From assembly GCA_949130485.1 (NCBI GenBank), contig OX422183.1, forward strand, positions 19,065,934-19,129,933: a DNA stretch of 64,000 nucleotides, read 5' to 3'. This document shows positions 20,841-64,000 of the stretch, one piece after another; the stretch's first letter is position 1; the number at the start of each line of letters is the position of its first letter. The notes below the pieces were generated by a model, which was not told where the DNA came from, ran no database searches, and saw nothing but the letters and a program-made list of their open reading frames with translations. The stretch is from Agelas oroides (lineage: Eukaryota; Porifera; Demospongiae; Agelasida; Agelasidae). The position numbers and the translations under genes were made by a program.

Positions 20841-20929
20841 CTTTACTATAGTAACGGTACGCCTAGGGCTGTAGTCGGTTCCATAAGGCTGAGCTAGGGG
20901 TTGGGGCTGCTCTGTGTTATCTGCGAGGC

Positions 20930-24701: not shown

Positions 24702-25675
24702 AGTTGTATGTCGAGTGGGGGAGCACCAACACCGCTGGCACATCGATGTTCAAAATTTCACACATACATAAAGTGTGAAGTTAAAACATAAAGGGAGATG
24801 GGGATGGGGCATTTATGGCTTAGATGGATGGGGCATTTTATGGCTTAAATGGGTGGGTGGGGCATTTATGGCTTAAATGGGTGGGGCATTTTATGGCTTA
24901 AATGGGTGTGGTATTTATGACTTAAATGGGTGGGGCATTTATGGCTCAAATGGATGGGGCGGTTAGTTACTGTTTTTGGGAGATATGCTCAAAAAATACT
25001 GGTCTTCAGGGGAGTACCCTTTCCGGTCCTCGCATGACCACGGGTTTCGGTCCCTTTGAACTCCCGACCCGTGGCCTACTACAGAAAGGGCGGGACCACT
25101 CCCCGCCTAAGGTTTGCTTTGAGGAGCCCAGCTTTTGGTTGGCACATAGTGCTATGGGCATTCACAGTGCTATAAATATTCAAATTACTAAACAAATTGG
25201 GGGTGGGGCTCAATGGGTGGAGTTATCATATTAGCTTATAATAACTAGGGGGATGGGCGAACGGTTAACGTACGGGATTCTGGCTCGCTATCGTGTCGTC
25301 TTGGTGGAACGTCTGGGAGGCTTGTTCTTTGCTGGTAGGCGCTCCTGTACCGAAGATAATTCGGGTCTGTACTGCGGCGACCATCTCACGGTGAGTATTA
25401 TTAGTTGTTTGTGTGTGATACTCGGTCGACGGGCTTTAAATGGGAGCGTGCTTCTCTTAGTAACGGCGTACCTATCCTAGTAACGGCATTGTTACGCTAG
25501 TTATGGCGTGTGCTTTACTATAGTAACGGTACGCCTAGGGCTGTAGTCGGTTCCATAAGGCTGAGCTAGGGGTTGGGGCTGCTCTGTGTTATCTGCGAGG
25601 CTCACTCACAGTGTGAAGCTCATTCACATTAAAAATTACGAGTGTGAGGCTTACTCACACTTGAGTTACTACTGT
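24702..25675. repeat. Tandem unit 3, truncated
   Basis: It matches the first 970 or so bases of the unit and stops inside the palindromic satellite. The next bases jump back to a degraded copy of GGCTTTAAATGGGAGCGTGC and then leave the array, so the right boundary is a rearrangement point. Confidence 0.9.
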
Positions 25676-30100: not shown

Positions 30101-33100
30101 ATGGACCCATTGTTGTTACAAGAATCCAGAGAGAGAGTTAAAATGTTTTGAAAATGTATGGCTATGTAAGTAGAGATTTTCTCGGTACATGTTTGATGAC
30201 CATGCACTCCATAGGTAGTTAGAAATGCATGCCCCATATCACCGAATTAAAATTCGTAAATAGCTAACCTATCATACAGCTTCATCGTGGTAATAAAATT
30301 TAGTGGATTCCTGAGGAAAAAAAGAAAATGAAATTACTACCCTGCAGGTCCTCCTCAGTCCTTTTCTGTCAATATTGGTGCTGCTCAACCTGGTCACTTG
30401 TAACTGATGATAAGTCAACGATCTGATTGTGCATGAATGTAATGTTACAAAATTACATGTGTTTTACTGCAGGTTCTCCACCTGACTTTTCTTGTCAGTG
30501 TCAGTGTCCAGATGCGTATCACTCAGACCGATGCAATATAACGTGGGATAGACTTCGCACTGTTTCCTGTAACTCATTACAATTTAGTGTTTCACTGACA
30601 CTATCAAATGGAACACCTGTGTACAGTGAAAACTTTGAATCAGATAACATCTTTGCTCAAACTACTCCACTGGACCTAGGTGCTGCGTACACAGCCACTA
30701 TAACTGCTGAGAATGAATGTGGCGTCACTACTTGTCCTGCAGAGTGTTCTCCAGGTAAGGATACAGCTAGTTAGTTATCACTGTGGTATGTTTTACTTTC
30801 CATGGTCAAATGTGGACAAATACCAACAGCACTGAAATGTGCATCTCTTAAGGTTACAATGAACATGTTTGATATCAGAATTCAATTATATTAATGCACT
30901 TGAATCCCATTATATCACCAGAGTGCTTATAGGTATTTTAACATTTCGAAGACTAGCCTAAGTATAATGCTCTTTTGAACATAACAGCTCTACCAACTTA
31001 AAATCCACGGAATGATGCCTTCGCAAAAGCTCTTTTGCATCAAATATCTGCTGAGCGAGAGCCGTCAAACTCACTGTTTTTGGCTAGTAGTCTCCTTGTG
31101 CAAGTATCTAGGTTGACTTGATGGAAATTTTTCTACATCAAGACTTTGAGTAGCATTTTTTTGTAAACTACGACTGGCAAAGCCATTTTGATGGTTTTTC
31201 TTCCACTTTTTGGTAAAACTTGAAGAGTCGACCTCAAACATTTAGCATGGAAGGCTATAGAGTTATTATCTGCCCCAGAAAATAGAAGTAATTTCATAAA
31301 ATTGACACAAAGTTAGTAACGGCAGGAATACATTGAGACCCACTAGTATAGACAAAGCATACATGTGCACAGCTTGTTCATTGTAACCTTAATAGTTGCT
31401 AGATCAACTATGGGCAAGTACCACTGCATGATTAGCAGCAATGAACATATCACAGCATGCTTGGGCACTTACACTGCATGAAAATGTCGAGATATGCTGA
31501 AAGTTTCAGGCAAATTTGGATATACTAGTACACTTTTGATTACCTCAGCACTGTGTAACGTGCTTGGGAGATAGGCTCTGCACCAGCAGAAATGGTGGGA
31601 CAGGGGGAGGTTGGTGAATCAGGCACAGGGTGCTATGCACATGGTGGCTATTGTGCTTGGCTGTAAAACCGCTTGGTCAGCACTCTCCTCGTTTTCACGA
31701 CCAGGCTTAGAAAATGCTCCTCTCACCTTGTATTTCTGGTACTGTAGACAATTTTCTGTCTGGACAGGCCTTTACTGGTCGAGAGTCTTGACTATTCAAA
31801 GCTCACTAATCAGTGCGTGTGGTCAGATCGAGTCACAAAATCTGTACAGAATGGCTGAAAGTACCTTTGGGGAATATCCAATTGCTAGATCCCAGTACAA
31901 GGTGAAGTACAGTAAGTTGAAGGCTAAAGATGACATCTACAGAATATATTTTATTTGGTTTAAAATTCCTTTCCCAAAACAGGAATGGCAATGCCAAAAT
32001 GTATGATAACAAAATATAATGTCAACAAACATACGAAATGTCATTCCTCTCTTTTTCACAAATAGTTTGTACATTGCACACTAAAAGCTGTCCAAATTCT
32101 ACACAAATAATACTTAAATCTGTACAGAATGGCTGAAAGTACACTTGTCTACGTCTCCTGCAAGATTACTTATCACTGCTGCTGGATTTAAAGATTATAG
32201 TTAAATGTTAGAGAGATTCCATTGCAGCAATGGTAGCTGGGATTTAAGGTCAATAACCTGAGAGCACAAACCAAGGACAAGGATTCACCATAAATCTCAT
32301 AGCTGCCATGCAATGTAGGTTATTTTCTCCCAACTAAATAAACATATTTCACTTAGCAAGGTAGTTTATATGAATTCTCATTTTATTACTTTCTGTAGAA
32401 TCTGAAACAGGATCTACAACTGTCTGTAAGTTTATGGAAATTACTATGAAGATGAGGGTAAAGTGGAAGAATGATTACCGTATTCTCTTTAAAATACCGG
32501 ACACTCTAATTGTCCGGACACCTCAAATATGAATTTTTCGTCACTCTAATTAAACCGGACAGCAGAAAAATCGAGGGATTTTCCCTCTCTAATTCAAGCG
32601 GACACATGCGAGGTCGAAATTTTTTGCTGGAGTGTTGGCTAGTCAAACGAAGTTCCGTCTAGTGAATCAAGGAATAGAGAAAGGCTCTACGAAGTTATTT
32701 TGAGCCTAGGTATGTTATTCTGGAGATTACAGAGAACGCTTACATGCTGCATGTTGTCACGGTGTACCGGGTACCGTCTTTGGCTTTTCTCATTGATAGC
32801 AAGGCAAAGCTTCAAAACCGTCTTGATATTTAAAAAGCTCGTGGGCTGCAGCACCTTCCTTGTTAGTGTTATATTTCTGCTTGGAAGCGTTGTGAAGAAA
32901 TCATGGCCAATAAGTCATTTTTACAATCGAAGCGATCGACAGTGATCCAGGCTTCGTTACTATGCTTCACCCCTTGAGTGTTGAGTCCGATGGTGCTCAG
33001 CAGGTCTGTTCATGGGTACTGACGGTAGCCCATGCACACAGATAGCGGCAGCAAATGCACAGTCATGGCAACTCGTAACAAAAGCGTGGTTGATAACACA

Positions 33101-39863: not shown

Positions 39864-42800
39864 ATGGCTTACATTTTTACCGCATACGCTCTGATCTTCC
39901 CTTCTATCTTCTTATGGTCTCTGCACACAGTCATCACTGTGGAAGCACAGTGTAAGTGAGTGGGCCCAGATAGCTAGCTAACTAGATAGATAGGTAAATA
40001 AAGTTTCATAATTTTAGCAACTAGACTTATAGTTACTGTATCCATTGCAGAGTAGATAAATTCTTATTCACGTCCTGTCAGAATAAACACTAAGATTAAA
40101 AGCATATATATTGTGCCAGTGGAAGGTTTTATCACTGCACAGAGTTAGCCCGTTTTTCTTTTTGCCAACACTGGGCCTTCCGCAGCTGTACTCGTGTGAA
40201 TACAATTTTGCAGGTTTTGACATGCACGAACATGGCCAGTCTGACCAGTGTGTTTATATTGCTGTAATAGTATGCATCAAATATCCAGTGAGTGAAGGGG
40301 CCAAGGCAGATTCTCAAAACATGTTACAGCTATTGGCGCCTGTGAAATTTTTCTAAACCTGAAATTGAAAACCTAGAAGCTGCTTAGATGAGCCATTTGT
40401 GAGGCCATTTGTGGTCATTTCCTAGCACTGTTCAAATAGCTTACAATGGTATTGTACTGCTTCCTCCTTATCTTGCAACTTTCTGGAATATTATTGTTAC
40501 TCATGCGTGCGGTCATTGGGCTTTGTGGAGCTCCCCCTTACAGTTCTACACAAATAAGTCAATTAGTGGTTTTGCTTCCCTTTGAACGGAAGCAAAACCA
40601 CTAATTGACTGTGTAAGGATTCACAACCAGCTGGCGCGGTTATACCTAATTGCATTTGCAGCTTCTGTTCAAGACTACAGTACTATATACACTTCTGTTC
40701 AAGAAAAGCTCAGTAATAAGTTATCCCATTCATACTAGGGGTACATGACATGCAGCAAGCCTCGCTGCAAAGCAGAGCCTGGCAACTACAAACATGTGGG
40801 AATGAAATTGTCAAACATAAATAAATGAAGTAGCAAATGTACGTAGGTGTTACTGTGTGTTTATTGAAGTTCATGTAATCCTAAAAGTCTCTCATGTAGG
40901 CGCCGTGTTCGGGAAATTGATTCCAACCGTTGAAATGACATAGGTTGGATAAGAAGTGTTGAGTTTTATATTCATTTACTTCACTTTCTTTGCATTGCCA
41001 CTATACTGAGTGGGGTAGACACTAACTTTAATCATAGATAATACAGTACTGCGTACTGTATTATCCATGCTTCAATGACTAAGTGACAGACTGCAATACC
41101 CGAGAGTCTTTGAACAGCAGCAGTTGAATGGCCTTCATGGAACAGTGCATGACTTTCTTTCGGTAGCGTAAATCCCCACAATAGAGTCCAGAAACTGCGC
41201 TGATCACTGGAAGTCAAGCTAGATTGCTACGCGGAGCTCGCTCAATACCATTAACCGACCGATAGAAGCTTGACTGGATGTTCACTACGAACTTGTTCGC
41301 TTGCTATCGCCATCTAGCCTCGAGGTCAAGAGCGATGGACGTCGAGCTAAAAATACCTTGCTCGATCGCTTACGTATTTACTCACGCCCAGTAACAGATG
41401 AAGATCACGTGTGCCAAACTTGTGGGGGGGGGGGGCCCCAGAGGCCAAAACCGTGACATACATTTGACGTTCCCGGGGCCGAGACTGCAATGCTGTATCA
41501 CCGCGTGACGTCACCACTGAGGCACACGTCACGATTACCAAGCCTCGCTGCGCTCGGCAATTACAGGAAATAAAACTAGTACTGAGACATGCCTCACATT
41601 TTTTGCACGTGCATTTGGAAAATGTTCACTTCCCCACACCAGTGGATGGAAGCATCATATTAGTTTTCTCAATCAAGAGAAAAAAGCCACAGTGGCCAGA
41701 GTCCCTGTCAATGAATAGTCTACTGCTTGCTCAGCCTGAGCATCTGTCTAGTTAATGAGAAACTATTAGTTGAATGCAAGCAGCTCTCTGACACTCTGGT
41801 TCCAGCACTGCAGGAATTGTGCTACATACAGGGATGAGACCAATGTTTTGATAATCCTCTTGAGAATTATGTGGCTTTATGGTAAAGTGAAGCAATCACT
41901 AACAGAACAATCCAGCTTGCACTGTTGACTCTGGGTTCATGTTTGCTGGTAAAATTAAAAGACAAGGTATTACTTTGTTATTGTTCTCCAGCATTCCAGG
42001 TGGTTCCCAGAGACACCTGTGTCCCCTGTGGTGGATCAACTGTGTTCAACTGCAGCACTACTGCACCTACCAACTTAGGAGGCGGAAGAATAGTGAATGG
42101 AGCTGGTGGTCAGATGTGGAGGATCCAAATACCAGATGGCACAGTGATATCTCTGAGCTCAAGCATGCCTAGCATGGTGCCTGCAGGCTATGAATTAATC
42201 TCATCCTTTTTGAATCAATATACTGGACTCCGGTTGCTCGATACAAATTCAACTTGGAATGGAACCACTTTCCAATGCATAGCATTCACTCCAGCTGATA
42301 CAAGAGAACAAAATGATTCAGCTGCTGCAGTTACACTGGAAGTTGGAAGTGAGTACAGAATTTTTTTCAAAATACTGCCATTCTGTTTGGTAGCCACTCT
42401 CAAATATCTACTGCAAGCACACTTGCAGTAGTCACTTCCCTTAACTAATAGCTGCACATAATAAAATGCAAAGGGTTAATTTGCATACAATCCAGTGACT
42501 CAATGAGTATACTGATGAATGTGACAATGACATTGATATGGAATATCTACAGAAGTTCGGAGATGGAGAGTGCATGGGAGATGATAGCTGGCAAAGTTGA
42601 GGAGAGTTTTGATCATCACAGTCATTATACATTTGACCTACCATGTGCATAATAGCTATTGTAAAACTCATGTTATTATTCAAAGCACTCACAATTTGCA
42701 AGCTTGCATAAGCTGCTACGTATGTAATTATTGACTGATATGTATTATCGACCAGTGGAAACGGAGAATCTGATATTTTACATAGCTAAATGTCTGCATA

Positions 42801-45800
42801 AGTGTGTAGTGGATGAACAGCCTTTTTACTTCCAGTCAGTGCATTGTACGAATTAAACAATCGCTTTGTGCTGACTATGGAGTTTATTTGCAGGACAAGG
42901 GCATGTGCTTCAGATTTGCAAAAGACTGACTTGAACCAGAACTATCATTCGTCAAAACTAACAGAAAAAGGCTCTAGCGGTTAGGCAGGAACTCTGAGGC
43001 ACAGCATGCAGCACTCTACTACCATTCGTCTAGCCATGGCAAAGGTTCATCCTGCCGAGTCAGCCATATCTCTGTTAGCTGTTAGTTGTTTCATAGCTGT
43101 TTCATAGCTGTAGTCATTCAATGGAGCTGTTTAAATACCTGTCACTGACTGTATGGCATGTTATTTTGCATGAGTCATATTTTTGTGTTCATTTGACTCT
43201 GCTCTTGTGGATTACCAGGTGCCAGGATAACAAAATGGTATGCTGATGTTTTAACTCCTTTCAAATTTATATACAGCCTGGAATCTTGCCACTGGTCGAT
43301 AACTGATAATACTAAAATGTATGGGCAGTCGATAATACATACAGGTGGTTGATAATTGGTATGTGAATAGGATTTTGGAAGCACTTTGTCATGGGTGTGT
43401 ATGCACTATAACCTGTTTAGAAGGAGTTATTGTTATTCAAGAGAGATTATGCTCTCGGTTGGTGCAAGATCCAAGTTCCCAAGTGATTCCTGGACTGAGA
43501 TATAAAGACAAGTGCAAATATGGTTGATAATTAGCAGCTTACGCTACTTGAGCAAAAGAATAGAAAAGCAACATCAAACATGTACTACAGATGTTCTGTG
43601 TGGGAGTACCAACAGCACACTGTTGTTCTCCTCTGTTTCACTTGCCAGTATTCACAAAGAGTGAAGAGTTTATATATCATCTTCTAGTCTTGAGTGGCTA
43701 ACATGCCCACGAAGGAGGGTGGTTGTTGAACATTTAGCATTTAACCAGCTCATTATCCAACCCTGAATGTATCCTTCAAGGCCTGTTCTCTGAATATCTC
43801 ATTAATCTAACTATTATTGTAGTGATAACAAGTTTCAGCCACACCTACTATTGTGTGTGGCATTTCTTCAAAGGTAGGGTATTGTTATATGGTCACATCA
43901 TTTATTGGTTATACAATAAGATTCCAGATCCAACTTAATCAATATCCTGCCTACCTCTCCTCTCTTGGGGGTAAGACTTTGTCCATGGGACAATACCTGG
44001 AGGCTCCGCCCCCAGTAATTTACCCCCAAGGTTCAGACAATTATATTAGGGGGCAGGCTAATTACTGATTGCATGTACCTAATGCTAGTAAACCGCTATT
44101 GAGTAGCTATAGCCCTCCATTAATTAGCCCCAGCTCATCCCCCAAAAGAAAGGAGTGATGTACAATGCATGGGTTACAGCCAGCAGCACTGTATATGCAC
44201 AGTAAGGAGATTACAGTCAGGGTCTGCATTGAAGTAGCAAGTAACTTACACAAACAGGGAGATATTGCATGCCTCAAAATTAACACAAAGAGGGTGTGGA
44301 ATTAGATCTCAGAGATGAAGCTGCTGGTCTCATTTTTTTATCTTTTGTTGTAGGCCAGTACGTGGCCTGGTAGTGCATGAAAGCAATGTTCTATAACTAC
44401 TTGTTTCACTGCAGGTCCTCCACAGTCCTTTTCCTGTCGATGTCAGTGTCCAGATGTGCATTGCTCAGGCACCTCAGACCGGTGCACTATAACATGGGAT
44501 AGACTTCGCACTGTTTCCTGTATCTCACTGCAATTCAATGTTTCTCTGACACTACCAGATGGAACATCTGTGTACAGGGAAAGCTTTGGTCAGAGTATCA
44601 CCTCAACTCCAACTATTCCTCTAGACCCAGATACTGTGTACTCAGTTGCTATAACTGCTGGGAGTATATGTGGCAATACTACTTGTTCTGCACACTGTTC
44701 TACAGCTTCAATAGACAGTAAGAATGCAGTTGGCTTGTTATGTATGTGGTTGTTGGTATGTTGATATGCTACTCACTAGCTTGCTGTAGTATCACACTTA
44801 ACCATGAGCAAATACAATTGCTACTACCACTAGTACTACCACCAAGTGGCAATGAATACCATGTGTGAATGTGTATATGGAAGCAATACTTGGGTCTTTT
44901 ATAGGAAAAGGGCCCTTAGGGAGATAATTTATGAATACTCAGTAGCTCTAAGTATGTGAAATATGAAATTTTTGACAAAACTTATTGCAATTTTGAGTTG
45001 CCACAATCCAGTATCCACATGGCATGTGGAATGCAGCTGTATTTCTGTGTAAGTTGCCTAGTTATAACTGTAGAACATTTAGTAGTGTCACCATTTTACA
45101 TGTTTATATGAGCTATAGCTACTACTAGTGGTGACATAAGCATTCTAGCATGTGAAGATGAAGCGCACTTAGCTGCATTCACTGAACAGGACGAGGAATC
45201 CTATGGGTTTGCTTTGGAGGACCTATAGGAACACCTATTATATAGTCAGGAGATTGTGATGATGTGGATATTGGGAGTGAAGATTAATTGGATTCAGCAC
45301 TGTGATTGCTAGAGTTGGTTCAAATGAGGATGACCAGCCAAATGTTCTTATGCAATTTTGACAATGCAAGGAAACTAGCGTAAAAAAAAAAAAAAAAGCT
45401 TGAGAGTGGACGTGCATGCCCAAACAATTGTTAAGTCAATTTCCTGAGGACAAGATGTACTCAATTCAATTGCAAATGACTAAGCTAGATGAACCAGAAT
45501 GTGACATGCACACATGCACACATACCCACATCCAGCACAAAACATTTGTGAAACTTCATGCATAACTGCTATTTCTTAAAGTTGTCTTTTGTACAGAGTT
45601 GGTTTTAAGAAACATAACTTGGTAATCTTCAAGAAGCATTCTTTGCCAGGGAGATGTTAAATACTAAAGTATAGTTTGGTGCATATTTCAAGAAATTACC
45701 CTAAAGACCCTTTTCCTATCAAATGGCCCAACTGTCTTATAAATTATACGGCTTGGCCACTTCAAGTTATTTTTAGGCCACTATGAGGGTCACACATGTT

Positions 45801-48800
45801 AGAATGTTTTGTCACCTTGATTTACACCTGTTTTGTCTACTCCATTTTCATCTACTTTTTTCATTTCGTCTATACTAAATGTTTTTGAACTACATCTTAG
45901 GGCACTTTGAATTTTGCCCTTTCTGAAGTCTTTCATTACAGTATAATGTTTGTGGGATTATAGCTACCAAAGTTTTGCTTTTTTCAGATGATGAATCAGT
46001 TGACTGTATTAAGACTAAACAAACAGCTACAATCCTACTCTATACATCATTTTACCATCTGTTGAGGGACTTACCTACCACCATCAAAGGACCTGCACTT
46101 TATTGCAACTTTGAAATGCAACTAGACAGATATTCCCATTTTGACGTTGCTAGATGAAGATTCATTTCTTTCCCCCATACTAACACAAACTAAGTAACAT
46201 TATATAACCACTCTTTATTTGCCCACCTGCAACTAGGATAACCACTTTAAAACAACCATTCTGTTTTTACAGTATACAGCAGGGGCGGCGGAAGGTACTT
46301 GAGATTGGGGGGGCACCAATGATGATGCATGCGTAAGTACGCACAGGCTAGGGGGGTAAAAAATTTTTAAAACTAGGTGCTCTGAGATCGCTTCTGAGGC
46401 CATATTTGTACCCAAATGCCACTAGTCCGACTAGAGTACATGGCGGGAGTATAATACCGCCATTCGCCACGATACACGTCAGTCGTCACGAGGCGTTTCA
46501 GTCACTATAGTTGACCTTGTACGTGTCGGGCCTGATGAGGTGGGCATCTTGTAGACGAATTGACGACCTGGACAAGAACGGATTCTACTTTGTACTTCAC
46601 TTTGAAACTAGTGCTCACTGCAAAAGCGGTCACAAAGGTCACCACACTTAACAGCTTGAAGGGGGGAGCACTATGCAGCAAAATCTCTTCAAGGGGGGGC
46701 ACGTGCCCCTGGTGCCCCCCCCCGGTTCCGCCGCCTACGATACAGTATGTACATACATGTGTATACACATACATATACCGTACTGTTAGCTCATCCCCGC
46801 GCAAGCACCTTTTTTTGACAATTCTGTGGGTTTTTTTAGGTCCTCCATGTAATCGCCCGCCATGCTAAATTCTTGTGTAGTGAATCCAAAGTAGTCCGCT
46901 GAGCGCTTGCCCGGGACAATACGGTATATATGTGTGTGCATGTGTGGATATAGTAAAGTTAAACTGTACATTACAAATATATAGCATACATGATGTATTA
47001 CTTCAAAGAGAAGCATAACAACATGACAGTAGACAACGTTGAAATGGCAGTAGATGATGACAGGATATTACTGTCACTTCACATACTGTATATCTGTAAA
47101 CCTGACCAGTATTCCACATGTTACATATAGTTGCTTGCATACCATAATTATGACAGGGCTGTGGTAGACAGCCATCATTATCAGCTGAAAGTGTGGTCAT
47201 ACTCAATCTGGTCAGTCACAAACTTTCTGCTCAGACCTCTACTTCCAGCCCTAAATTCAAGGATTTGTATGGTGTGATTAGTATAATCTCACTTGATAAT
47301 TAGTAGGTCTTACTACATGTACACTGTCAGGGCCAGTATGTCTATATTCTGTGTGAAGTAATATTTCGAAGTTATGTACTTGGTGTTGCAAGCACCAATA
47401 ATAACTTCTAAACTCCTACTATATACTGCCAGTACGTACTGTACACTACTGTCACCATTATCACTACTGTCCCTTTGTCACTACTGTCACTATTGTCACC
47501 ACCATCACTACTGTCACCATGCACTGTCACTAAGTAGTTTGTACTGTTATACTGCTGTCATGGTACTATAGCTTATAGCTATGGCATCCACCAAGGCACC
47601 CTTGTCTACAGTCATCTGCAGTGCTATTGCGGAAACAAACAAAGTAGTAAAAGAAGTGACTGGGTCAAACTCAAAGTTGAAAGGAGCATGTTAGAAGCAA
47701 GCTCATTACGTGTTACTGTCATGCAGTAGCATCCACTCCTCGATAATTTCTTCAACTTGTTACACAAAAAGGAAACATTTTGGATATTAAAATTTGCTCA
47801 ATGTTGTTATTCTGCTTTACAGTACAATTATACAATATTGAAGTTCCCTTGATTTTTTATACAGTTCCTGCAGTTCCCAACAGTTGTAACATCAGTCTAT
47901 CATACAACCAGTCATCAAAGAGGCTTCTGCTCATCAACAGCACCTGGAATACTGTGCCAGTAAGTCATGTGACAAGTTTGAGTATAGTTTTAACAAGTTT
48001 ATTGGTTATGACTTGTACTATGGATAGTGATTTTATTACTGATGAGAAAGGGTGAAGTGAACAGAGCAAACAGCACTTCACAAACTGGCAATTTATAGTG
48101 TACTTCTCCCTCCATGAGGCATGTCTAGGCCCAACTGGGGACATCACACAGTACCTGGTCAGTTTCCAGACTGGGTCTGTTGTGACTACTGAGAATGTGA
48201 ATGTTGCTGATCAGTGCGCAGCTGGGAGGTGCAGCCACACCTTTGAGCCACCCTCAAATCCACCCTCAAGCTATGACAGTGTGTCAGTGGCCGCTGAGAA
48301 TATGGCGGGAGTGGGAACTGCAAGGACATGTACAACACAAACCATCAGTGAGTTATCAGTCTTACGTTACTAGTTTCATGATTGAAGGGTTGTAGTCCAA
48401 ACAACATTTTATTTGGGCAAGCCTGAATGATCCCCATGCTAACAGGAGTACATTGCACACACACTCGTTTGTTTACTTGCTTGCTTGGACCCACCACTTG
48501 CTATAAATGACCACATTCAAACATTTCAGAATGTCCATGTAGCTATACTTCAGCTCAGCCAATGGAAGGCTCTTGTTTTCAGTGGGAGGGAAGCTTGGAG
48601 AGTATTAGGAATACTCAGAACAAAGCCACAGTATATATATAATGTCATTTTACAGTTAGTCTTAACAAAATGGGCTATCGCAGTGCAAGTGCTTGACCCA
48701 TAGATTGGTTGTGCCCAGCATAACAATCTATGAATACACTTATGTGCATGTATGCCATATACAAGGGCTCATGTACTTTTGTGTATAGACAAGACCATCA

Positions 48801-51626
48801 GAAGTGGGACATTTTTTCATTGACCTTTGAACTGTAAACTCATGAGTATTTCTGTCTTAAGATGATGCCTTCTTCCATGTAGGCACAACCAACAACCTTC
48901 TAACTGGAAGAGCTTTAGATGTGAGCTCACCCAGCGACGTAACAATTGTCTGCATATTTCTATCTGGGTTCACTGGCTCTGCTCACTGTACAGTCCAGGA
49001 TGGAACTGACCCAACCTACATGAACCTGCCGTACTCTGCTGGGTCCACTGAGACTGGTACAGCAGGGGACACTGTCAGTGTGGTACTGAGGGAGCGACTG
49101 AACTCCTCAACTGTGTACTACTACACTGTGTCTGCAGTTAGTGGAGATATCACTGTGACAGTGCAAGGGACCTTCACAACACCACTTTACAGTAAGTATG
49201 TGCTTTTAACATAGAACTTTGATTTTAATTGTACAGTGTCACCTCCCCATGAATTCTTCCTTATAGCTAGGTGAATGGAGTGTGGCATTTCATTGTCTAA
49301 ACCTCCAAGAAATTAAAAATTGACTTCAGAGTCACTCATGCTTGCTCCGTGTCTTACTGGTCTTAAATTCTCAAACAGCTGTAGATAAATTAACATTCTT
49401 CACCATTTTACAATTTGATAAGCCAATCTTGCACGTGAGCACAAATATTTGAGTGCACATGTAAAGAGTTATATCCCACACTGAGGTTAGGACATGACAA
49501 AGAACAGCAATCTGATACACTCCAACAAGTATTTTCAAATTACCATCACCATGCAGTTTACACAGTTTTTTTGTTTTGAGGTTTTAGTGAACCTCACACT
49601 TGTGAGGTCTTATAAAACTATATGATCTCCAACTGGCTAGATGCACATAAAAGTGCGACATTTTCATTTTAAATAAGGGGCGATTTTCTGATGAAATTCA
49701 GATGAAACCTTGGCATAGTGTGGCCATGGATCCTCTTCTGCCAATACTCAGGATACATCCACACAGCTTGCTCATCGTCATCCCGCAATGTCATATGCAT
49801 ACCAAGTTTATACAATGAGATTGACTGAGATTGGCTAAGCTCTGCATTGTCTTATTATATATTATAATATTCATAAGAAATTTTTACTTGCATTTCTGAA
49901 TATTCATAAGGACCTCCACTGGCAATAGTGTTGTACTTTGATCTCACTCTGGATACATCCATAACACACAACTCTGCAAGCAAATCAGTTCTCGACTGTT
50001 TGCTCGGAAGCTTAGTAATGTTCAGCTTCATGCTCTACATGGAATACACATGCCAGCTGCATCTCTTTCCAGTACTACAATACATGTCTCAAACAGATCA
50101 GTGTCACTGATTTTATAAAGTACCTATACAGTTAGTATCTGTGAAAAAAAATATATCAGTATGTACATGTATCAATCTTTTGTGGAATCAGTACACAAGG
50201 AGAAAAAACACACTTAAATTGATTTGGCAATATTGCACAAATTGTATTCCGTTTGTTTAGGCAGTTCTCTGTATTTTTACAACAGGTTGTTCATCGATTG
50301 ACCTGACTCCAACTGATGGAGTCAGACAGTGTACAGACAGAGGATTTGGTAACACAATGACCATTCCCAGTGGTGTGGTCTGCTACAATAGAACTACTGC
50401 AGGGTCAGAGGCAGTCTACATCTGTGATGATGGATTTCACCAAAATGGTGCAGCAACAAGGGTGTGCCAGAGAGATGGTGTATGGAATGGCAGTATACCT
50501 CAGTGCTTACCAGGTCCAGGAGGACAAGATGGTACAACATATGTGTCTATTCATTATTGTCTAGGGCATTAAAGTTTTAAATTTTTCAGTTCTTCAAGTT
50601 TAAAAACCGCACCCCAAAATGCTCACAGAACATAGAGTTAAATTAGTGCAGTTATCTTACCCAAGAGTTCAATGCTACTTAGCTACAAAGCTTTATCACA
50701 AAGCTGTGTTCAAAACACATTTTAACCTCAAGGGAGGAGCCCAAGGCAGTGCACTTAGCCAAGGAATACAATTCTTGTTCACCAACCAACAAGCTCCATT
50801 CACCAGCTACCTCACCCCTCATGGCAAAATGATTTCCCCATTTATGCGAAATCACGTGTTCCATATGCCTAGATACAAGCTACGTGTACTGTAGCGCTGT
50901 GGCTTAACGAAGCACACAGGTGTAATCAGGTGAAGGTGTGAGCGCTGGCAACTCAAGTTCTGGGTTCAATTCCCTGCAACTGCCATTTTCTCTTATTCAC
51001 TTTATATCACTGAATGTATGTTCATTTAGGTTACACCCCCAAGATGCCAAAAAAGGATCACATAAATTAATGTAATTAGCAGGCAAGACAAAGTGATGTA
51101 CATCCAATCTGAGCACATATTTGTTATTGCCATGATCATCCTCCACAATCTTGACTTTTAACTTTAACGTACCCTAAACAATTTAGTAGCTACGTTCCTC
51201 ATTTTACATTCAGCTTTTTGATATGGCATCTTGATATTGTATTATTGCAATGTTGTATAGTACCTCTCCTCCCATTTAGGTTGTGAATGTGGAGTAAGTC
51301 AATGCCGGTCTGCTGTGGGGATTGCAGTTGCAACTACTGCTGTGGTGATGTTCACAGCTGGTGTCCTGGCTGGAGTTCTGCTGTAGTACTGCATCAGCAA
51401 ACACCGATCCCAAGGCTCCAAGCCTGAGTCATCCTCTCGTGAACAGAAGCAGGCAGCACTATCTTCCCTCCAACAGCAGAAGGCAGTATCCTCCCCCAAT
51501 CCACTACAAGAGACAGGTCCAGAGTATGCGGATGTGATTAAACTGAGACAAAATGTAGTCTATGGGCTCACACAGACTGGTATCGAGATGAGAGCAAAGG
51601 AAGCCTATCGGCCCATCCAACACTGA
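39864..51626 (+). CDS. Multidomain Ig/FN3/sushi receptor with in-frame TAG before its tail
   Basis: Exons 39864-39951, 41992-42348, 44415-44717, 47865-47959, 48119-48347, 48883-49191, 50286-50513 (or 50531) and 51280-51626. All joins are phase 1 except the phase-0 split of one FN3 domain at 47959/48119. Domains: signal peptide (AYALIFPSIFLWSL); Ig-like (CVPCGGSTVFNC to TFQCIAF); Cys-rich FN3-like (RCTITWDRLRTVSC); FN3 (STWNTVP, GDITQYLVSF, SVSVAAENMAG); a second FN3-like Cys-containing domain (VTIVCIFLSG to YYYTVSAVSG); one sushi/CCP (GSEAVYICDDGFHQNG to CQRDGVWNGSIPQC); a membrane span (AVGIAVATTAVVMFTAGVLA). TAG at 51384 ends the simple reading at 571 residues. An intact tail of 79 codons follows to TGA at 51624, with GPEYADVIKL and NVVYGLT tyrosine motifs. 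A GTAAGT donor at 51294 and the TAG as acceptor would remove 93 bases in frame, giving 620 residues without the span. Confidence 0.82.
40557..40609. repeat. Near-perfect hairpin
   Basis: GTCAATTAGTGGTTTTGCTTCC, interrupted by CTTTGAAC, is followed by its exact inverse. It lies in the first intron of the receptor gene and looks like a minimal foldback element. Confidence 0.8.
46277..46740. mobile_element. CGGCGGAA-ended MITE
   Basis: Ends AGGGGCGGCGGAAGG and GGTTCCGCCGCCT are inverted, each followed inward by GGGGGGCACC-type runs. TACAGTATA (46268-46276) and TACAGTATG (46741-46749) match at 8 of 9 bases. It lies in the intron before exon 47865-47959. Confidence 0.75.
46778..46924. mobile_element. 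Short CCGTA element with TA sites
   Basis: CCGTACTGTTAGC at the left and GGACAATACGG at the right are partly inverted, with CCCGCGCAAGC and GCGCTTGCCCGGG further in. TA lies on both sides. It follows directly after the element at 46277-46740. Confidence 0.55.
51294..51386 (+). other. Possible exonic intron (exitron) covering the membrane span
   Basis: Starts with a consensus GTAAGT donor directly after a Gly codon and ends with CTGCTGTAG, an acceptable acceptor whose last three bases are the in-frame stop. It is 93 bases, divisible by three, with both borders in phase 0. Removal joins CECG to YCISKHR without a frameshift. Retention gives a membrane-anchored protein without a tail. Both outcomes are deduced from sequence only. 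Confidence 0.5.
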
Positions 51627-51936
51627 TTAGCCACTACTGTAAGCCTTTATAGTGTGTGCAGAGCATCAGATCACATGTTGTTTATTTACTTAGGAAGTCT
51701 TGTTCTTATTCTTTGTATCACTTAATCACTTAAACTGTTAATCGTTTGTTTTCTTTTGGTTTTCTATTATGGCAACTGGTACATTGATAATAATATCCCT
51801 TAACTCTATTGGATGTTGCACATATCTTTTATTTTAAAGCAACCTTGAGAGAGTGAGAATGAGTTGGAATTCAGCTGAGGCTTCTACTTCTAGGCAATGC
51901 TGCATGCTTATGTAGTTTGTCATTGCTCCTCTGCCA

Positions 51937-52013
51937 GGGGTCCAAATGGCTTAATGGTAAGAGTGTCTGATTAGTATTCAGAAGGTCTTGGTTTTGAGTC
52001 CCAGCTGGATCCT
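51937..52013 (+). other. tRNA-like segment, probably pseudogene or SINE head
   Basis: GGGGTCC and GGATCCT can pair as an acceptor stem. TGGCTTAATGG matches an A box, TCTGA-TTAGTAT-TCAGA makes a perfect anticodon arm with AGT (Thr), and GGTTTTGAGTCC approximates a B box. Spacing is wrong: five bases before the D stem, an eight-base T loop with one mismatch, and two extra bases before the acceptor stem. A second A/B-box pair is at about 50893-50985 (TGGCTTAACG and GGTTCAATTCC). Confidence 0.3.
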
Positions 52014-53171
52014 GGAATTCTTTTATTTCTCACTCTCTCAGAACAGCAGCACGAGTGCCTATACTGTCACATACAGTAACATCATGCCTCTTTTTGTTTT
52101 ACAGTTGTTGCATGAGTGTTCTGTATTTGCTCATCTACATATATAGACATATAAACCATTCAACAACATGCACTATAATTACCTGTTACAGATGATGATG
52201 CTTCACACAAAATCTATGGAATTAGTTTAACTGTGTTTCTTGGGTCACTTCTGCCTGAGACGGTTGCTATTTTGTGGATGTGCACCAGGATATGATGCAG
52301 GTGCATTATAATCTCTGAAGCTCTATCCCAATAACTACCGATGGTGGACAACAACAATAGAAGATAGTAACTATGTGATTTCAATATGCATGCATGCAAA
52401 TTATCATGATCTGCATGAAGCAAGTGCTATAATGTTCCATGAGTTGTAACATCATCTTATTGGAGATTGGTCTACATTGATATACTCCTTATAGACAACT
52501 TTCTGTGCCCACTACATACCTATCTAGTGTTGCAGAATACATCATAAAATTAATTAGTTACCTGTTGCAATGGCACCACTGTGTCTATTCAACCTGATCA
52601 GATATATATCATATGACTGAATTGCTGCTGTTGCAAGTTAATCTATTGCAGTGTGGAGCAGAATGGTAGAACAGCAGCAATGAACAAGAGAGAGTCAATA
52701 GTCTTTACCTACCCTGTATGTGACACTCTCTCAACTCTCAACTGGGCTCTATATTGCTGTGTTCACTTCATATAATCCCCCCTGCAAAATCTAAAGTGGA
52801 TGGTGAGACTATTCAATGTGTATGCTCTTGTTTACAATCCCAACAATGAAGTGAATATCTCTGCCTTTTACTCCACCAGCAGTGCCATTTGTTTTCTTTG
52901 TTGTTTCATTCATTTACAGTGTGTCAGCATTTCATCCCACATTTCTTGTTGCTGGGCTCAGAGTGCCTTGCATCATTATGTATACATATACAATGCATAG
53001 CTACTCGATACATCTAGAGTGAAAAGTCTTGCAAGGCAGGGTCACACTTTCTTTGCCGCAAAGTAGTCTATGAATCAGTGCATAAAAGGTATACTGGTAT
53101 TTATTTATTTCATTCCAAACTGCAAAGTGAACTGATCAATGTTCAAAGCAGCTAAAATCATCAGTGGTCTC

Positions 53172-55869: not shown

Positions 55870-58800
55870 TATATTCACTACTACCCTTCAGCATTCACTA
55901 CCACACTTCAGCATTTATTACTACCCATCATCATTCACTACTATCCTTCAGCATTCACTATTACACTTCAGCATTCACTACTACCATTCATCCCTCACTT
56001 CTACCCTTCATCATTCACTACTACCATTCATCCTTCACTACTACAATTCATCCTTTACTACTACCCATCATAATTCACTACTACCCTTCAGCATTCATTA
56101 CTACCGTTCATCCTTTTTACTACCCTTCAGCATTCATTACTACCCTTCAGCATTCAATACTACACTTCATCATTCACTACTACTACCCTTCAGTATTCAT
56201 TACTACCGTTCATCCTTCACTACTACCCTTCAGCATTCACTACTACCCTTGAGCGTTCGCTACTACACTTGATCATTCACTACTACCCTTCATTATTCAC
56301 TAAAACCCTTCAGCACCCACTACTAGAATTCGGCATTCACTACTACCATTCAGCATTCACTGCTACCCTTCAGCATTCACTTCTACCCTTCAGCATTCCC
56401 TACAACCCTTCAGCATTCACTACTACCCTTCAGCATTCATTACTAACCTTCAGCATTCACTACCACCCTTCACGACTCGCTACTTCACTTCGGCATTCAC
56501 TGCTACTATTCAAGTGTCACTACTATGCATCATCATTCACTACAACCCTTCATCCATCACTACTGCCCTTCGGATTCACTACTACCCTTCATCCTTCACT
56601 ACTACACTTCATCCTCCACTACAACACTTCATCATTCACTACCACGTACCCTTCAGCAGCCACCACTACATATACCCTTCACTACTACATATCCGTATTC
56701 ACTACTACCATTCAGCATACACTACCATCCTTCACCATCCACTTCTACTCTTCAGCATTCCCTACTACCCTTCAGGATTCACTACTAGCCTTCATTCTTC
56801 ACTACTACCCTTGATCCTTCACTACTACCCTTCATCAGTCACTACTTCCCTTCAGCATTCACTACTACCCTTCAGCATTCATTACTTCCCTTCAGCATTC
56901 ACTACTACCCTTCAGCAATCCCTACTACCAATCAACTTCTAATACAACCCTTCATCATTCCCTACTACCCATCATCTTTTACTACTACCCTTCGTCATTC
57001 ACCACTACCCTTCACCATTCACTACTACCCTTCGGATTCACAACTACCCTTCATCCATCACTACAACACTTCATCGTTCACTACCACCCTTCAGCAGTCA
57101 CCACTACCCTTCACTACTACATATCCGCATTCACTACTACCATTCAGCATACACTACCATCCTTCATCACCCACTTCTACCATTCAACATTCCCTACTAC
57201 CCTTCAGCATTCCCTACTACCCTTCAGCATTCACTACTACCCTTGATCCTTCACTACTACCCTTCATCAGTCACTACTTCCCTTCAGCATTCACTACTTC
57301 CCTTCAGCATTCACTACTTCCCTTCAGCATTCCCTACTACCAATCGACTTTCAATACAACCCTTCATCATTCCTTAATACCCTTCAGCATTCACTACTAC
57401 AATTCAGCATTCCCTACTACCAGCATTCACTACTACCATTCATCATTCACTACTACCCTTCAGCGTTCAATACTACAATTCAGCATTCCCTACTACCCTT
57501 CATCATTCATTACTATCCTTCATTATTCACTGTTACACTTCAGCATTCACTACTACCAATCATCCTTCACTTCTACCCTTCATTCACTTCTGCCTTTCAT
57601 CATTCACTACTACCCTTCAGCTTTCACTACTACATTTCCTCATTCACTACTAATCTTCATCATTCATCATCATTCACTACTATACTTCATCCTTCACTAC
57701 TACCTTTCATCCTTCACTACCACCCTTCAGCATTCACTACTACACTTCAGCATTCACTACTACCTTTCACCATTCACTACTACCTTTCAGCATTCACTAC
57801 TACCCTTCAGTATTCCCTACTACCAATCGACTTTCAATACAACCCTTCATCATTCCTTAATACCCTTCAGCATTCACTACTACAATTCAGCATTCCCTAC
57901 TACCAGCATTCACTACTACCATTCATCATTCACTACTACCCTTCAGCGTTCAATACTACAATTCAGCATTCCCTACTACCCTTCATCATTCATTACTATC
58001 CTTCATTATTCACTGTTACACTTCAGCATTCACTACTACCAATCATCCTTCACTTCTACCCTTCATTCACTTCTGCCTTTCATCATTCACTACTACCCTT
58101 CAGCTTTCACTACTACATTTCCTCATTCACTACTAATCTTCATCATTCATCATCATTCACTACTACTCTTCATCCTTCACTACAACAATTCATCATTCAC
58201 TACCACCCTTCAGCAGTCACCACTACCCTTCACTACTACATATCAGCATTCACTACTACCATTCAGCATTCACTACCATCCTTCAGCATCCACTTCTACC
58301 ATTCAGCATTCCCTACTACCCTTCAGCATTCACTACTAGCCTTCATTCTTCACTACTACCCTTGATCCTTCACTACTACCCTTCATCAGTCACTACTACC
58401 CTTCAGCATTCATTACTACCCTTCAGCATTCACTACTACCCTTCAGCAATCCCTACTACCAATCGACTTTCAATACAACCCTTCATCATTCCCTACTACC
58501 CTTCATCTTTTACTACTACCCTTCATCCTTCACCACTACCCTTCACCATTGACTACTACCCTTCGGATTCACTACTACCCTTCATCCTTCACTACTACAC
58601 TTCATAATTCACTAGCTACCACCCTTCAGCAGTCACTATTACACATCGCCATTCTCTACTACCCGTCAGCATTCATTACTACCATTCAGCATTCACTACT
58701 ACCCTTCACCTTCCACTTCTACCATTCAGCTTTCCCACCCTTCATCATTTACTACTACACTTCATCATTCACTACTACTACCATTGAGGATTCACTGCTA

Positions 58801-59077
58801 CCTTTCAGCTTTCAGTACTACCCATCATCATTCCCTACTACCCTTCATCCTTCACTACTACCCTTCATCATTCACCACTACCCTTCACCATTCACTACTA
58901 CCCTTCATCCTTCACTACTATACCCTTCATCCTTCACTACTACCCTTCAGCATTCACTACTACACTTCAGCATTCACTACTACCTTTCACCATTCACTAC
59001 TACCTTTCAGCATTCACTACTACCCTTCAGCACTCCCTACTACCAATCGACTTCCATACAACCATTGATCATTCCTC
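55870..59077. repeat. 20-base satellite, left block
   Basis: Units of CATTCACTACTACCCTTCAG with many variants. Three units are 60 bases, so the plus strand reads a 20-residue cycle (FTTTLQHSLLPFSIHYYPSA) with few stops in any frame. A 353-base segment at 57332-57684 recurs at 57815-58167, showing higher-order duplication. Confidence 0.95.
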
Positions 59078-60082
59078 AAGGTGGCAGGGAACCCTGGGTT
59101 TTCAAGGTCAACAAACCTGGAATCCAAGCTGATAGAATTCTTTGTCTTTTATCGCACAGTCCGTTTTGAGAGTCTTCATCCGTTCACTGTCCGTAAAATT
59201 GGGGATTTTCCCCATTTCCTGTCGGCATTGACATCCAATAATCAGTTTATAATTAAGTTAGTTAAGATGTGGCCTGGCGGAACCCCTCATGTGGTGATCG
59301 GAACTTTGAAGATAAGCTTAGATCGACTTAAAAAAAATAAATAAATAAAAAATAAAAAGAGGAGTTTTAGTAGAGTGCTGTAGTGTCAGTAGCTGTGAGT
59401 AGTGCGTAATGCCTGCTTGTGAAAGCTAGCTTGTGTCTAGAAGCAGCAGAAAAGCCACAGTGGCCAAGACTGTACTCACTGGGTAGGCCCAGGTCTTGCG
59501 ATCGTATGCCAAGCCTAGTAGATGACCGTGGCCCGGTGCTCCGAGTGCTGGGCTGAGCTTTAACTAGAATGCGCAATATATCGTTGGTACTACCCTACTG
59601 TAGACAAGAAAGCTGTGGAGGAGTTGTGTGTGGAACAGAACCGTGAGTTGTTTAGCGACATAAGGGGGAGAGGTGGGGCTAGTAATGCTTGCTTCCACTC
59701 GTGAATGAGCCCCTCCCGTAGACAAGCTGTGAAATGTGCATTCATTTTGGTGCAGTCAAAGTTGTCCATTCCAAGAGTAGTGACAAAACATGAATCTAGC
59801 CTGACTTTGAGAGTAGCTCTGAACAAAAGCTGGCATAGATTGATTTGAGATAATTGGTGGTTAGGACGCTACCTAGAGTGAGTGTGTAGATGCGTCCATC
59901 GAGTGGCAATTTTGGGTTCATGAATATATTAATAAGCCACTAAAACCCTTTTCAAAATTAGGCAAAGCAAGATTGCCCAAAAGCAAACCCTAACCCTGAA
60001 ACTATAGGAGTAACCCTGGTCCTGACTGTAACCCAAGTTTATGTTTTCGCTAACCTCCACCGAAAGACTTCACCGCCACCTT
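59078..60082. mobile_element. 1-kb insertion inside the satellite
   Basis: The satellite stops at AAGGTGGC and resumes after GCCACCTT, and the flanks CATTCCT and AATACCCTTC rejoin to a normal unit, so this is a clean insertion with short inverted ends. It contains an A-rich run (59330-59360), unmatched frames of 60-87 codons on both strands, and a telomere-like AACCCTAACCCTGAAACTAT with nearby AACCCTGG near 59990-60020. Its class is unknown. Confidence 0.55.
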
Positions 60083-63000
60083 AATACCCTTCAGCATTCA
60101 CTACTACCATTCAGCATTCACTACTACCCTTCATTCACTTCTACCATTCATCCTTAACTACAACCCTTCATCATTCACTACTACCCTTCAGCTTTCACTA
60201 CTACATTTCCTCATTCACTACTAACTTTTATCATTCATTACTAACCGTCACCATTCACTACTACCCTTCATCCTGCACTACTACCTTTCATCATTCACTA
60301 CAACCTTTCAGCTTTCAATACTACCCTCCAGCATTCACCACTACCCTTCATCTTTAACTACTACACTTCATCAATCACTACTACCCTTCAGCTTTCACCA
60401 CTACCCTTCATCCTTCACTACTACCCTTCATCTGTCACTACTACCCTTCAGCTCTCACTACTACCCTTCTGCATTCACTACTACCCTTCAGCATTCACTA
60501 CTACCCTTTATCATTCACTACTATACTTCAGCATTCACTACTACACTTCTGCATTCACTACTACACTTCAGCATTCACTACTACCCTTTATCATTCACTA
60601 CAGCATTCACTACTACCCTTTGGCAGTCCACCCTTCATTTACTACTACCTTTCATCCTTCACTACTACTCTTCATTGTTCACTACTACCCTTCCTCCTTC
60701 AATACTACCCTTCATCATTCACTACTACCCTTCAGCATTCACTACTACACTTCAGCATTCACTACTACACTTCAGCATTCACTACATCAGCCACTACTAC
60801 CCTTCAGCATTCACTACTACCTTCAGAATTCTCTACCTCCCTTCCTCAATGACTACTAAACTTCATCATTCATTACTGACCGTCATCATTGACACCTACC
60901 ATTCATCCTTCACTACTACCCTTCGGATTCACTACTACCCTTCATCCTTCACTACAACACTTCATCGTTCACTACCGCCCTTCAGCAGTCACCACTACTC
61001 TTCACTACTACATATCAGCATTCACTACTACCATTCAGTATTCACTACGATCCTTCAGCCTCCACTTCTACCATTCAGCATTAGTATTACGCTTCAGCAT
61101 CCACTACTACTTTCACTCGTACATTTTATTACCCACTATTACCCTTCATCATTCATTACTACCCTTCATCATTCACTACTACTCTTCATCATTCACTACT
61201 ATCCTTCACCATTCACTACTACCCTTCGGATTCACTACTACCCTTCAACCTTCACTACTACACTTCATAATTCACTACCGACCTTCAGCAGTTACCACTA
61301 CCTTTCTTTACTACATATCAGCATTCACTACTACCATTCAGCATTCACTACCATCCTTCAGCATCGACTTCTACCATTCAGCATTCCCTACTACCCTTCA
61401 GCATTCCCTACTGCCGTTCAGCATTCACTACTAGCCTTCATCATTCACTACTACCCTTCAGCATTCACTACTTCAGCATTTCCTACTGCCCTTCATCATT
61501 CACTACTATTCTACAGCAATCACCATTACACTCCAGAATTCAGCTTTCACTACTACATTTCCTCATTCACTACTAACTTTTATCATTCATTACTAACCGT
61601 CACCATTCACTACTACCCTTCATCCTGCACTACTACCTTTCATCATTCACTACAACCTTTCAGCTTTCAATACTACCCTCCAGCATTCACCACTACCCTT
61701 CATCTTTAACTACTACACTTCATCATTCACTACTATCCTTCACCATTCACTACTACCCTTCGGATTCACTACTACCCTTCAACCTTCACTACTACACTTC
61801 ATAATTCACTACCGACCTTCAGCAGTTACCACTACCTTTCTTTACTACATATCATCATTCAATACAACCCTTCATCATTCCCTACTACCCTTCATCTTTT
61901 ACTACTACCCTTCATCCTTCACCACTACCCTTCACCATTGACTACTACCCTTCGGATTCACTACTACCCTTCATCATTCAATACTACACTTCATAATTCA
62001 CTACCACCCTTCAGCAGTCACTATTACACATCGCCATTCTCTACTACCCGTCAGCATTCATTACTACCATTCAGCATTCACTACTACCCTTCACCTTCCA
62101 CTTCTACCATTCAGCTTTCCCACCCTTCATCATTTACTACTACACTTCATCATTCACTACTACTACCATTGAGGATTCACTGCTACCTTTCAGCTTTCAG
62201 TACTACCCATCATCATTCCCTACTACCCTTCATCCTTCACTACTACCTTTCATCCTTCACTACTACTCTTCATTGTTCACTACTACCCTTCCTCCTTCAA
62301 TACTACCCTTCATCATTCACTACTACCCTTCAGCATTCACTACTACACTTCAGCATTCACTACTACACTTCAGCATTCACTACATCAGCCACTACTACCC
62401 TTCAGCATTCACTACTACCTTCAGAATTCTCTACCTCCCTTCCTCAATGACTACTAAACTTCATCATTCATTACTGACCGTCATCATTGACACCTACCAT
62501 TCATCCTTCACTACTACCCTTCGGATTCACTACTACCCTTCATCCTTCACTACAACACTTCATCGTTCACTACCGCCCTTCAGCAGTCACCACTACTCTT
62601 CACTACTACATATCAGCATTCACTACTACCATTCAGTATTCACTACGATCCTTCAGCCTCCACTTCTACCATTCAGCATTAGTATTACGCTTCAGCATCC
62701 ACTACTACTTTCACTCGTACATTTTATTACCCACTATTACCCTTCATCATTCATTACTACCCTTCATCATTCACTACTACTCTTCATCATTCACTACTAT
62801 CCTTCACCATTCACTACTACCCTTCGGATTCACTACTACCCTTCAACCTTCACTACTACACTTCATAATTCACTACCGACCTTCAGCAGTTACCACTACC
62901 TTTCTTTACTACATATCAGCATTCACTACTACCATTCAGCATTCACTACCATCCTTCAGCATCGACTTCTACCATTCAGCATTCCCTACTACCCTTCAGC

Positions 63001-64000
63001 ATTCCCTACTGCCGTTCAGCATTCACTACTAGCCTTCATCATTCACTACTACCCTTCAGCATTCACTACTTCAGCATTTCCTACTGCCCTTCATCATTCA
63101 CTACTATTCTACAGCAATCACCATTACACTCCAGAATTCAGCTTTCACTACTACATTTCCTCATTCACTACTAACTTTTATCATTCATTACTAACCGTCA
63201 CCATTCACTACTACCCTTCATCCTGCACTACTACCTTTCATCATTCACTACAACCTTTCAGCTTTCAATACTACCCTCCAGCATTCACCACTACCCTTCA
63301 TCTTTAACTACTACACTTCATCATTCACTACTATCCTTCACCATTCACTACTACCCTTCGGATTCACTACTACCCTTCAACCTTCACTACTACACTTCAT
63401 AATTCACTACCGACCTTCAGCAGTTACCACTACCTTTCTTTACTACATATCATCATTCAATACAACCCTTCATCATTCCCTACTACCCTTCATCATTCAT
63501 TACTAACCTTCAGCATTCACTACTATCCTTAAGCATTCCCTACTACCATTCATCATTCATCCCCTACTACTTTCACTAGTACATTTGATCACTCACTACT
63601 ACCATTCGTCCTTCACTACTACTCTTCACTATCCTTCACCATTCACTACTACCCGGTACCCTTCGTATTCACTACTACCCTTCATCCTTCACTACAACAC
63701 TTCATCGTTCACTACCGACCTTCAGCAGTCACCACTACCCTTCTCTATTACATATCAGCATTCACTACTACCATTCAGCATTCACTACCATCCATCAGCA
63801 TCCACTTCTACCATTCAGCATTCCCTACTACCCTTCAGCATTTCCTACTACCGTTCAGCATTCACTACTAGCCTTCATCATTCACTACTACCCTTCAGCA
63901 TTCACTACTTCAGCATTTCCTACTACCCTTTATCATTCACTACTATCCTACAGCAATCACTATTATACTTCAGAATTCACTACTATCCTTCATCATTCAT
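60083..64000. repeat. 20-base satellite, right block, continues past window
   Basis: Same unit as the left block. The segments 60641-61896 and 62239-63494 (1256 bases each, 1598 apart) look identical, including their 344-codon frames. 61860-62240 also resembles 58480-58860 across the insertion. The array runs off the right edge. Confidence 0.95.

Follow-up and report, generated by a model that had tools for sequence, protein, structure and literature searches.

The window, the whole 64,000-nucleotide stretch of Agelas oroides DNA that was analysed, carries a series of exons that fit a gene on the plus strand with consistent phases (Table 1). The gene ends in an exon in which a membrane span is followed by an in-frame TAG and then by an open tail with tyrosine motifs.

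Table 1. Exons, border codon and candidate splice sites of the gene, in window coordinates; scores are those of the splice-site models
Feature	Position	Strand	Observations
Ectodomain exon, Ig-like by eye	41992..42348	+	Acceptor 7.16 (19 of 67 lower); GTGAGT donor 2.46 (2 of 23 lower); phase 1 at both ends
Ectodomain exon, FN3-like by eye	44415..44717	+	Acceptor 13.44 (56 of 67 lower); donor GTAAGA 10.08
Ectodomain exon, first half of split domain	47865..47959	+	Ends in phase 0; homologous exons in other copies
Ectodomain exon, second half of split domain	48119..48347	+	Usual CAG/TAG acceptor missing, GAG left
Ectodomain exon, intact	48883..49191	+	Acceptor 10.6; donor 11.94
Sushi (CCP) domain exon, intact	50286..50531	+	PF00084, 40.2 bits (cut-off 20.7), E 4.7e-10
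Last exon: linker, membrane span, TAG, tail, TGA	51280..51626	+	Acceptor 10.97
GTAAGT, potential cryptic donor	51294..51299	+	GTRAG here in 0 of 25 other exons scanned
In-frame TAG at membrane/tail border	51384..51386	+	Stop here in 0 of 48 other copies read
Open tail past the TAG	51387..51623	+	79 sense codons; three tyrosine motifs of the family
Cryptic CAG acceptor	51474..51476	+	Score 10.31; in frame with the donor at 51294 (183 bases)

Acceptors were scored with a position-weight model built from 67 distinct family acceptors, each left out in turn (median 10.49). The set is without 7 of the 25 paralogue span-exon acceptors, which were ambiguous (L011, L013, L014, L015, L016, L018 and L019); for its span-exon and exon-48119 rows only CAG or TAG was accepted, by which L039 (AAG) was left out, and one row, the Sushi exon of L034, is probably misplaced. 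Apart from the acceptor of the exon at 48119, the ectodomain exons examined are open. The two outermost, which are probably part of the same gene, reached the cut-off for no Pfam family and had no match in the fetched paralogue loci, and each has a related unit within the window, at 27762-28196 (49% identical) for the Ig-like exon and at 30460-30795 (53% identical) for the FN3-like exon. These units form a second, upstream pair of the same two ectodomain exons (49-60% identical, compared with 41994-42359 and 44402-44701), and since the tail query finds a single span/tail exon in the window, the pair represents either a partial gene or extra modules of one gene.

The domain that follows is divided between two exons. 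All 12 listed homologues of the first carry CCA or CCT before GTAAGT. At the second, 13 of 14 aligned paralogues have CAG or TAG after a pyrimidine tract, typically CTCCCTCCAG before GACCCAG; the remaining one, L039, has AAG, and either the family tolerates a non-consensus base at this exon or L039 is broken too. In the window, where CTCCCTCCATGAG precedes GCATGT, both the customary acceptor and several bases of the exon have been lost. The GAG left in its place scores 2.71, with 3 of the 67 authentic acceptors lower; G at position -3 is found in none of the 67, partly by construction, and also in none of the 43 rows for which only AG was asked. There is no better AG between 47990 and 48170. 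If the exon were skipped, the frame would be lost, phase 0 meeting phase 1; use of the GAG would keep it. Splicing of this exon is therefore probably impaired. The next exon shows 77-84% protein identity to its best paralogues, ectodomain-exon matches having been taken with internal stops uncounted and with the query running past the exon end. The Sushi exon also just passes the cut-off for PF02793 (hormone receptor domain; 27.1 against 26.2), and its matches in the PDB are mostly complement proteins. In Pfam the tail had no hit, and no other non-Sushi exon tested rose above cut-off.

The last exon is entered in phase 1 after TTTAG and begins with a short linker containing three cysteines, GCECGVSQCRS, which leads into AVGIAVATTAVVMFTAGVLAGVLL, a span of 24 uncharged, hydrophobic residues with which the TAG, as read by eye, lies flush. 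The tail beyond it reads YCISKHRSQ...GPEYADVIKL...NVVYGLT...EAYRPIQH, includes the peptide SPNPLQETGPEYADVIK, and closes with TGA at 51624-51626; its third tyrosine motif is EAYRPI, the family form being EAYGPV and similar. This anatomy had been described to the base in an initial annotation, which placed the span, the TAG and the 79 codons to TGA correctly, named the real tyrosine motifs PEYADVI and VVYGLT, and labelled rightly, as 51293/51387, the junction of an intron to which we return below. The tail is homologous to tails at other places in the genome, 46 in all at E 0.001 with the window's own counted, and so is not a chance open frame.

To define the family, the genome (259 Mb in 141 contigs, the window lying on a contig of 32.7 Mb) was searched with the window tail at E 0.001, which placed all 46 matches on the window's contig, and, at E 0.01, with span-and-tail queries from two other members, which gave 100 and 143 matches, 99 and 141 of them on that contig. 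The matches are not all separate exons, some being pieces of one exon; merging of the three lists within 600 bases left 132 separate places, the window's counted, of which the weakest are distant. The window's span and tail are 68% identical to those of the copy at 18870029 and are carried in one frame of the last exon, as in the family; translation from span into tail is interrupted by the TAG, and the locus is a truncated member of the family, the result of an ordinary event. The best DNA matches differ by exon, being the copies at 21.45, 21.02, 21.40 and 21.35 Mb for the Sushi exon and those at 18.87, 18.78 and 19.59 Mb for span and tail, and the family genes thus look like mosaics. Neither a second copy of a 1621-base stretch of the locus nor a second haplotype was found in the assembly among the 40 of 316 candidates that were scored, in which the next best match to the stretch covered 255 bases at 89%. 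No relatives were confirmed in viral contigs (tail query) or prokaryote genome contigs (ectodomain exon query), and no published description of the family was found by title or abstract start; it may be in print under other words.

Pairs of family copies whose match scores are equal or nearly so lie near 20.55/20.77, 20.57/20.79, 22.84/22.92 and 13.11/13.135 Mb of G000:C1, a pair at 27.52/27.76 Mb being less alike, and two of the pairs are about 218 kb apart; paired copies suggest either recent segmental duplication or the keeping of both haplotypes in the assembly. The tail exon of L042 (G000:C1, about 21449655) has a tail of 205 codons with tandem repeats of the tyrosine-motif unit EEVIEMRKNSSYGEFKKLEKRAIISKHEPQSSEPESSPQQQQQTSAEH, which indicates that the number of motifs varies by internal duplication.

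The span/tail border was aligned in 50 loci, of which the window itself (L001) and a 21-bit spurious alignment (L018) were dropped, leaving 48 of the 131 other places, some of them near-identical pairs such as L008/L009. The initial annotation had raised the question of which codon normally occupies the border in related receptor genes. All 48 other copies have a sense codon there (TAC in 24, TTC in 19, CAT in 2, and TAT, CAC and TGC in 1 each), encoding Tyr or Phe in 44, His in 3 and Cys in 1, and of the two copies most similar over span and tail, the first, L002, has TAC and the second, L003, TTC. A change from TAC to TAG would be the simplest history of the border codon. Five of the 48 copies stop 7-39 codons past the border (L053 at 7, L054 at 18, L051 at 20, L011 at 37 and L052 at 39) and 3 run off the fetched DNA; the other 40 stop at least 52 codons past it, although some of these are also not intact, L014 and L062 having tail motifs in another frame. 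L053 (G000:C1:22919640-22919880, minus strand), the tail of which is in another frame, is an independent near-tailless copy.

The 79 tail codons of the window align to intact tails without a frameshift. Pairwise dN/dS of the tail against 13 copies was 0.17-0.61, and 0.54-0.61 against the three nearest. In a branch model of 14 sequences, omega of the tail was 0.45 on the window branch and 0.63 on the rest, which is no difference (LRT 0.47), and omega = 1 was not rejected (p 0.08), there being little power; single branches of five other copies ranged from 0.26 to 1.36, so that one branch says little. Values for the window branch in exon 5, the Sushi exon and exon 4, each taken with the first 10 or 11 paralogues, were 0.65, 0.65 and 1.0, none of them different from background at low power. 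The tail is weakly constrained throughout the family, and because it has no frameshift and a dN/dS like that of the family, the stop is probably recent rather than old.

The best explanation of these observations, which we consider probable, is a recent nonsense loss of the tail (TAC to TAG) in a large, clustered receptor family evolving by birth and death, in a gene that is decaying rather than being remodelled. The family would consist of clustered animal transmembrane receptors that have a Sushi domain and divergent further modules in the ectodomain, a single span, and tyrosine motifs in the tail. In the window copy an aromatic codon at the border of membrane and cytoplasm would have become TAG, most simply from TAC. 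Stops in the last exon usually escape nonsense-mediated decay, and the mRNA should do so here. The product would end at the last residue of the span, anchored and unable to signal through the tail, its tyrosine motifs being lost, and its ectodomain could still bind ligand; such a tail-less protein would be either non-functional or a decoy. That the gene is decaying is suggested by the missing acceptor at 48119, although 1 of the 14 paralogues also lacks CAG or TAG there. The signs of a pseudogene are the stop and this weakened acceptor, the other exons examined being open, and against decay is the finding that omega on the window branch is not above that of the family (tail 0.45, exon 5 0.65, Sushi 0.65, exon 4 1.0); in these four exons it is like background, as far as the low power allows.

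Two other readings accept the stop as it stands in the assembly or question its origin. A GPI signal consists of a hydrophobic C-terminal segment after a cleavage site of small residues. The 24-residue uncharged, hydrophobic segment AVGIAVATTAVVMFTAGVLAGVLL (judged by eye) ends directly at the stop and is preceded by small residues, G and S, that may serve as a cleavage site, so the truncation possibly leaves a GPI-like anchored ectodomain, and the tail-less form could then be functional as a lipid-anchored decoy or adhesion form. The open ectodomain exons examined agree with such a form, as does its likeness to the route described for CEACAMs (PMC2832619); nevertheless, no constraint specific to a new form is seen and the usual acceptor of the exon at 48119-48347 is missing, which makes plain decay likelier than a GPI-anchored decoy, and we regard a functional form as unlikely. 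Somewhat less probable still is an error of sequencing or assembly at the TAG, or a rare allele carried by the single individual that was sequenced. The TAG is one base from the family's commonest codon and a single copy of the locus was found in the assembly (40 of 316 candidates scored); nothing specific speaks against an error or rare allele, except that the window copy carries other private changes.

Three further readings would have the stop circumvented in the RNA. The initial annotation had favoured a switch between a tail-less anchored form and a span-less form carrying the tail, by way of a potential GT-AG intron of 93 bases in phase 0 (51294-51386) that deletes the span and the TAG. 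The acceptor of this intron exists only because of the TAG itself: no AG usable as an acceptor is present at this position in any of the 48 other copies read. It scores 0.58 against the family median of 10.49, below 66 of the 67 family acceptors and matched by about 20% of the 3766 plus-strand AGs in the window, and so is not a competent acceptor of the kind that an exitron needs. The donor scores 2.43, with 2 of 23 family donors lower and with a poor exonic flank, GGA, an objection weakened by the Ig-like exon, whose presumed donor does no better at 2.46. None of the 25 other family exons scanned has GTRAG at the equivalent place (the exon start of L011, L014 and L018 being projected from the tail); L048, whose linker is the closest to the window's in the copies compared, has GTCACT where the window has GTAAGT, and L003 has GTGAG elsewhere inside the span. 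In 100,000 random draws of codons from the 25 other family exons, about 1% placed an in-frame GTA-AGT at some point within the 34 codons that precede the TAG, and about 8% a GT[A/G]-AGN; such a motif is only mildly improbable. We rejected the switch on the acceptor score and on the lack of an AG in the other copies; judged by its sites, the 93-base intron is presumably not spliced, and we give the proposal practically no credence.

A better acceptor for the same donor, if GTAAGT at 51294 is used at all, would be the CAACAG site ending at 51476, than which 33 of the 67 authentic acceptors score lower; it is among the top 0.3% of the 3766 AGs in the window and is the highest cryptic acceptor in 26 family exons scanned. 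The resulting exitron, 51294-51476, is the sole splicing version worth testing. Its 183 bases are divisible by 3, its intronic donor motif is perfect and unseen at that place in 25 other exons, and its acceptor resembles authentic ones (10.31 against a median of 10.49). Its removal would take out span and TAG and yield a secreted form, unspliced mRNA giving the anchored, tail-less one. The donor again has the poor GGA flank (2.43, 2 of 23 family donors lower), no better or worse than the presumably real donor of the Ig-like exon at 2.46, it is hard to see what a secreted protein would do with a cytoplasmic tail, and the likeness of the acceptor is due to a Ser/Gln-rich stretch of coding sequence that is common among family members, CACCAACAG standing at the equivalent of 51476 in several copies. 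As this stretch gives strings of pyrimidines and CAG in many copies, we read the strength of the 51476 site as coincidence and hold the exitron to be very improbable. The same small chance attaches to its being a young exitron, assembled from the GTAAGT at 51294, the acceptor at 51476 and the TAG, a trio not found together in any other copy examined. If true, unspliced transcripts would encode a tail-less receptor anchored in the membrane or by GPI and spliced ones a soluble ectodomain with the old tail in frame, and through one stop codon a signalling receptor would have become a pair of anchored and soluble decoys. Passage of the stop in RNA, whether through readthrough or because A-to-I editing changes UAG into UGG and puts Trp at the Tyr/Phe position, deserves hardly any weight. 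It is favoured by the intact tail with its omega of 0.45, by UAG being a preferred ADAR triplet and by Trp being aromatic. Against it, the 120 bases past the stop show no more folding than shuffled sequence does (z 0.45), a stretch of 201 bases around it does not fold beyond chance (z -1.0), 8 inverted repeats were found in 49900-53000 but not one of them spans the stop, and the base after the stop is U, which is not known as a readthrough context. Readthrough and RNA editing were thus rejected for lack of structural support. Of the interpretation offered in the initial annotation, the loss of signalling by a nonsense mutation, named there as an alternative, is the part upheld by the sense codons of the 48 other copies; the splice switch, with its poor acceptor and a donor absent from 25 other exons, fell away, as did stop-codon readthrough, which has no structural mark (z 0.45 past the stop).

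The nonsense loss that we prefer can be set beside known receptor systems. The span of activating paired receptors contains a charged residue that serves an adaptor. The window gene resembles activating KIRs and other short-tailed paired receptors in that the tail is lost through a stop past the span, and differs from them in that none of its 24 span residues is charged. One Sushi domain near the membrane (40.2 bits against a cut-off of 20.7 for PF00084) recalls complement-type Sushi/CCP receptors, unlike which the other modules tested are below the Pfam cut-off and there is no sign of a complement function. With exitrons (PMC4484396) the locus shares a potential GT-AG intron wholly inside a coding exon; that of the window is a candidate read from the sequence, and the acceptor of 51294-51386 is very weak. 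There is also a parallel in form with the CEACAMs, whose GPI-anchored members are believed to have arisen through stop codons acquired independently in transmembrane exons, together with further mutations (PMC2832619). In both cases a stop at the transmembrane exon affects a single member of a rapidly evolving family of receptors whose tails have tyrosine motifs. However, the CEACAMs are a mammalian Ig family with expressed GPI members, whereas the window gene is known from its sequence and has a weakened splice site, and no shared ancestry is claimed. One truncated copy is to be expected in a receptor family evolving by birth and death, and the window offers a case of a receptor that has apparently only just lost its signalling tail, the DNA of the tail being still intact. 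With its 132 places, the family is one in which to ask how often an animal of this kind converts its signalling receptors to anchored or decoy forms, in the way that primates did with the CEACAMs.

Two other features of the window were observed. A C-rich tandem array of about 8 kb (55873-63999; period 20, ATTCACTACTACCCTTCAGC; about 411 copies with 67% match) goes with a strong negative GC skew and long spurious open frames. Blocks near 19680, 22578 and 24926 (about 19680-25477) have translated pieces that match the same fetched loci with the same scores, and they are therefore probably tandem duplicates.
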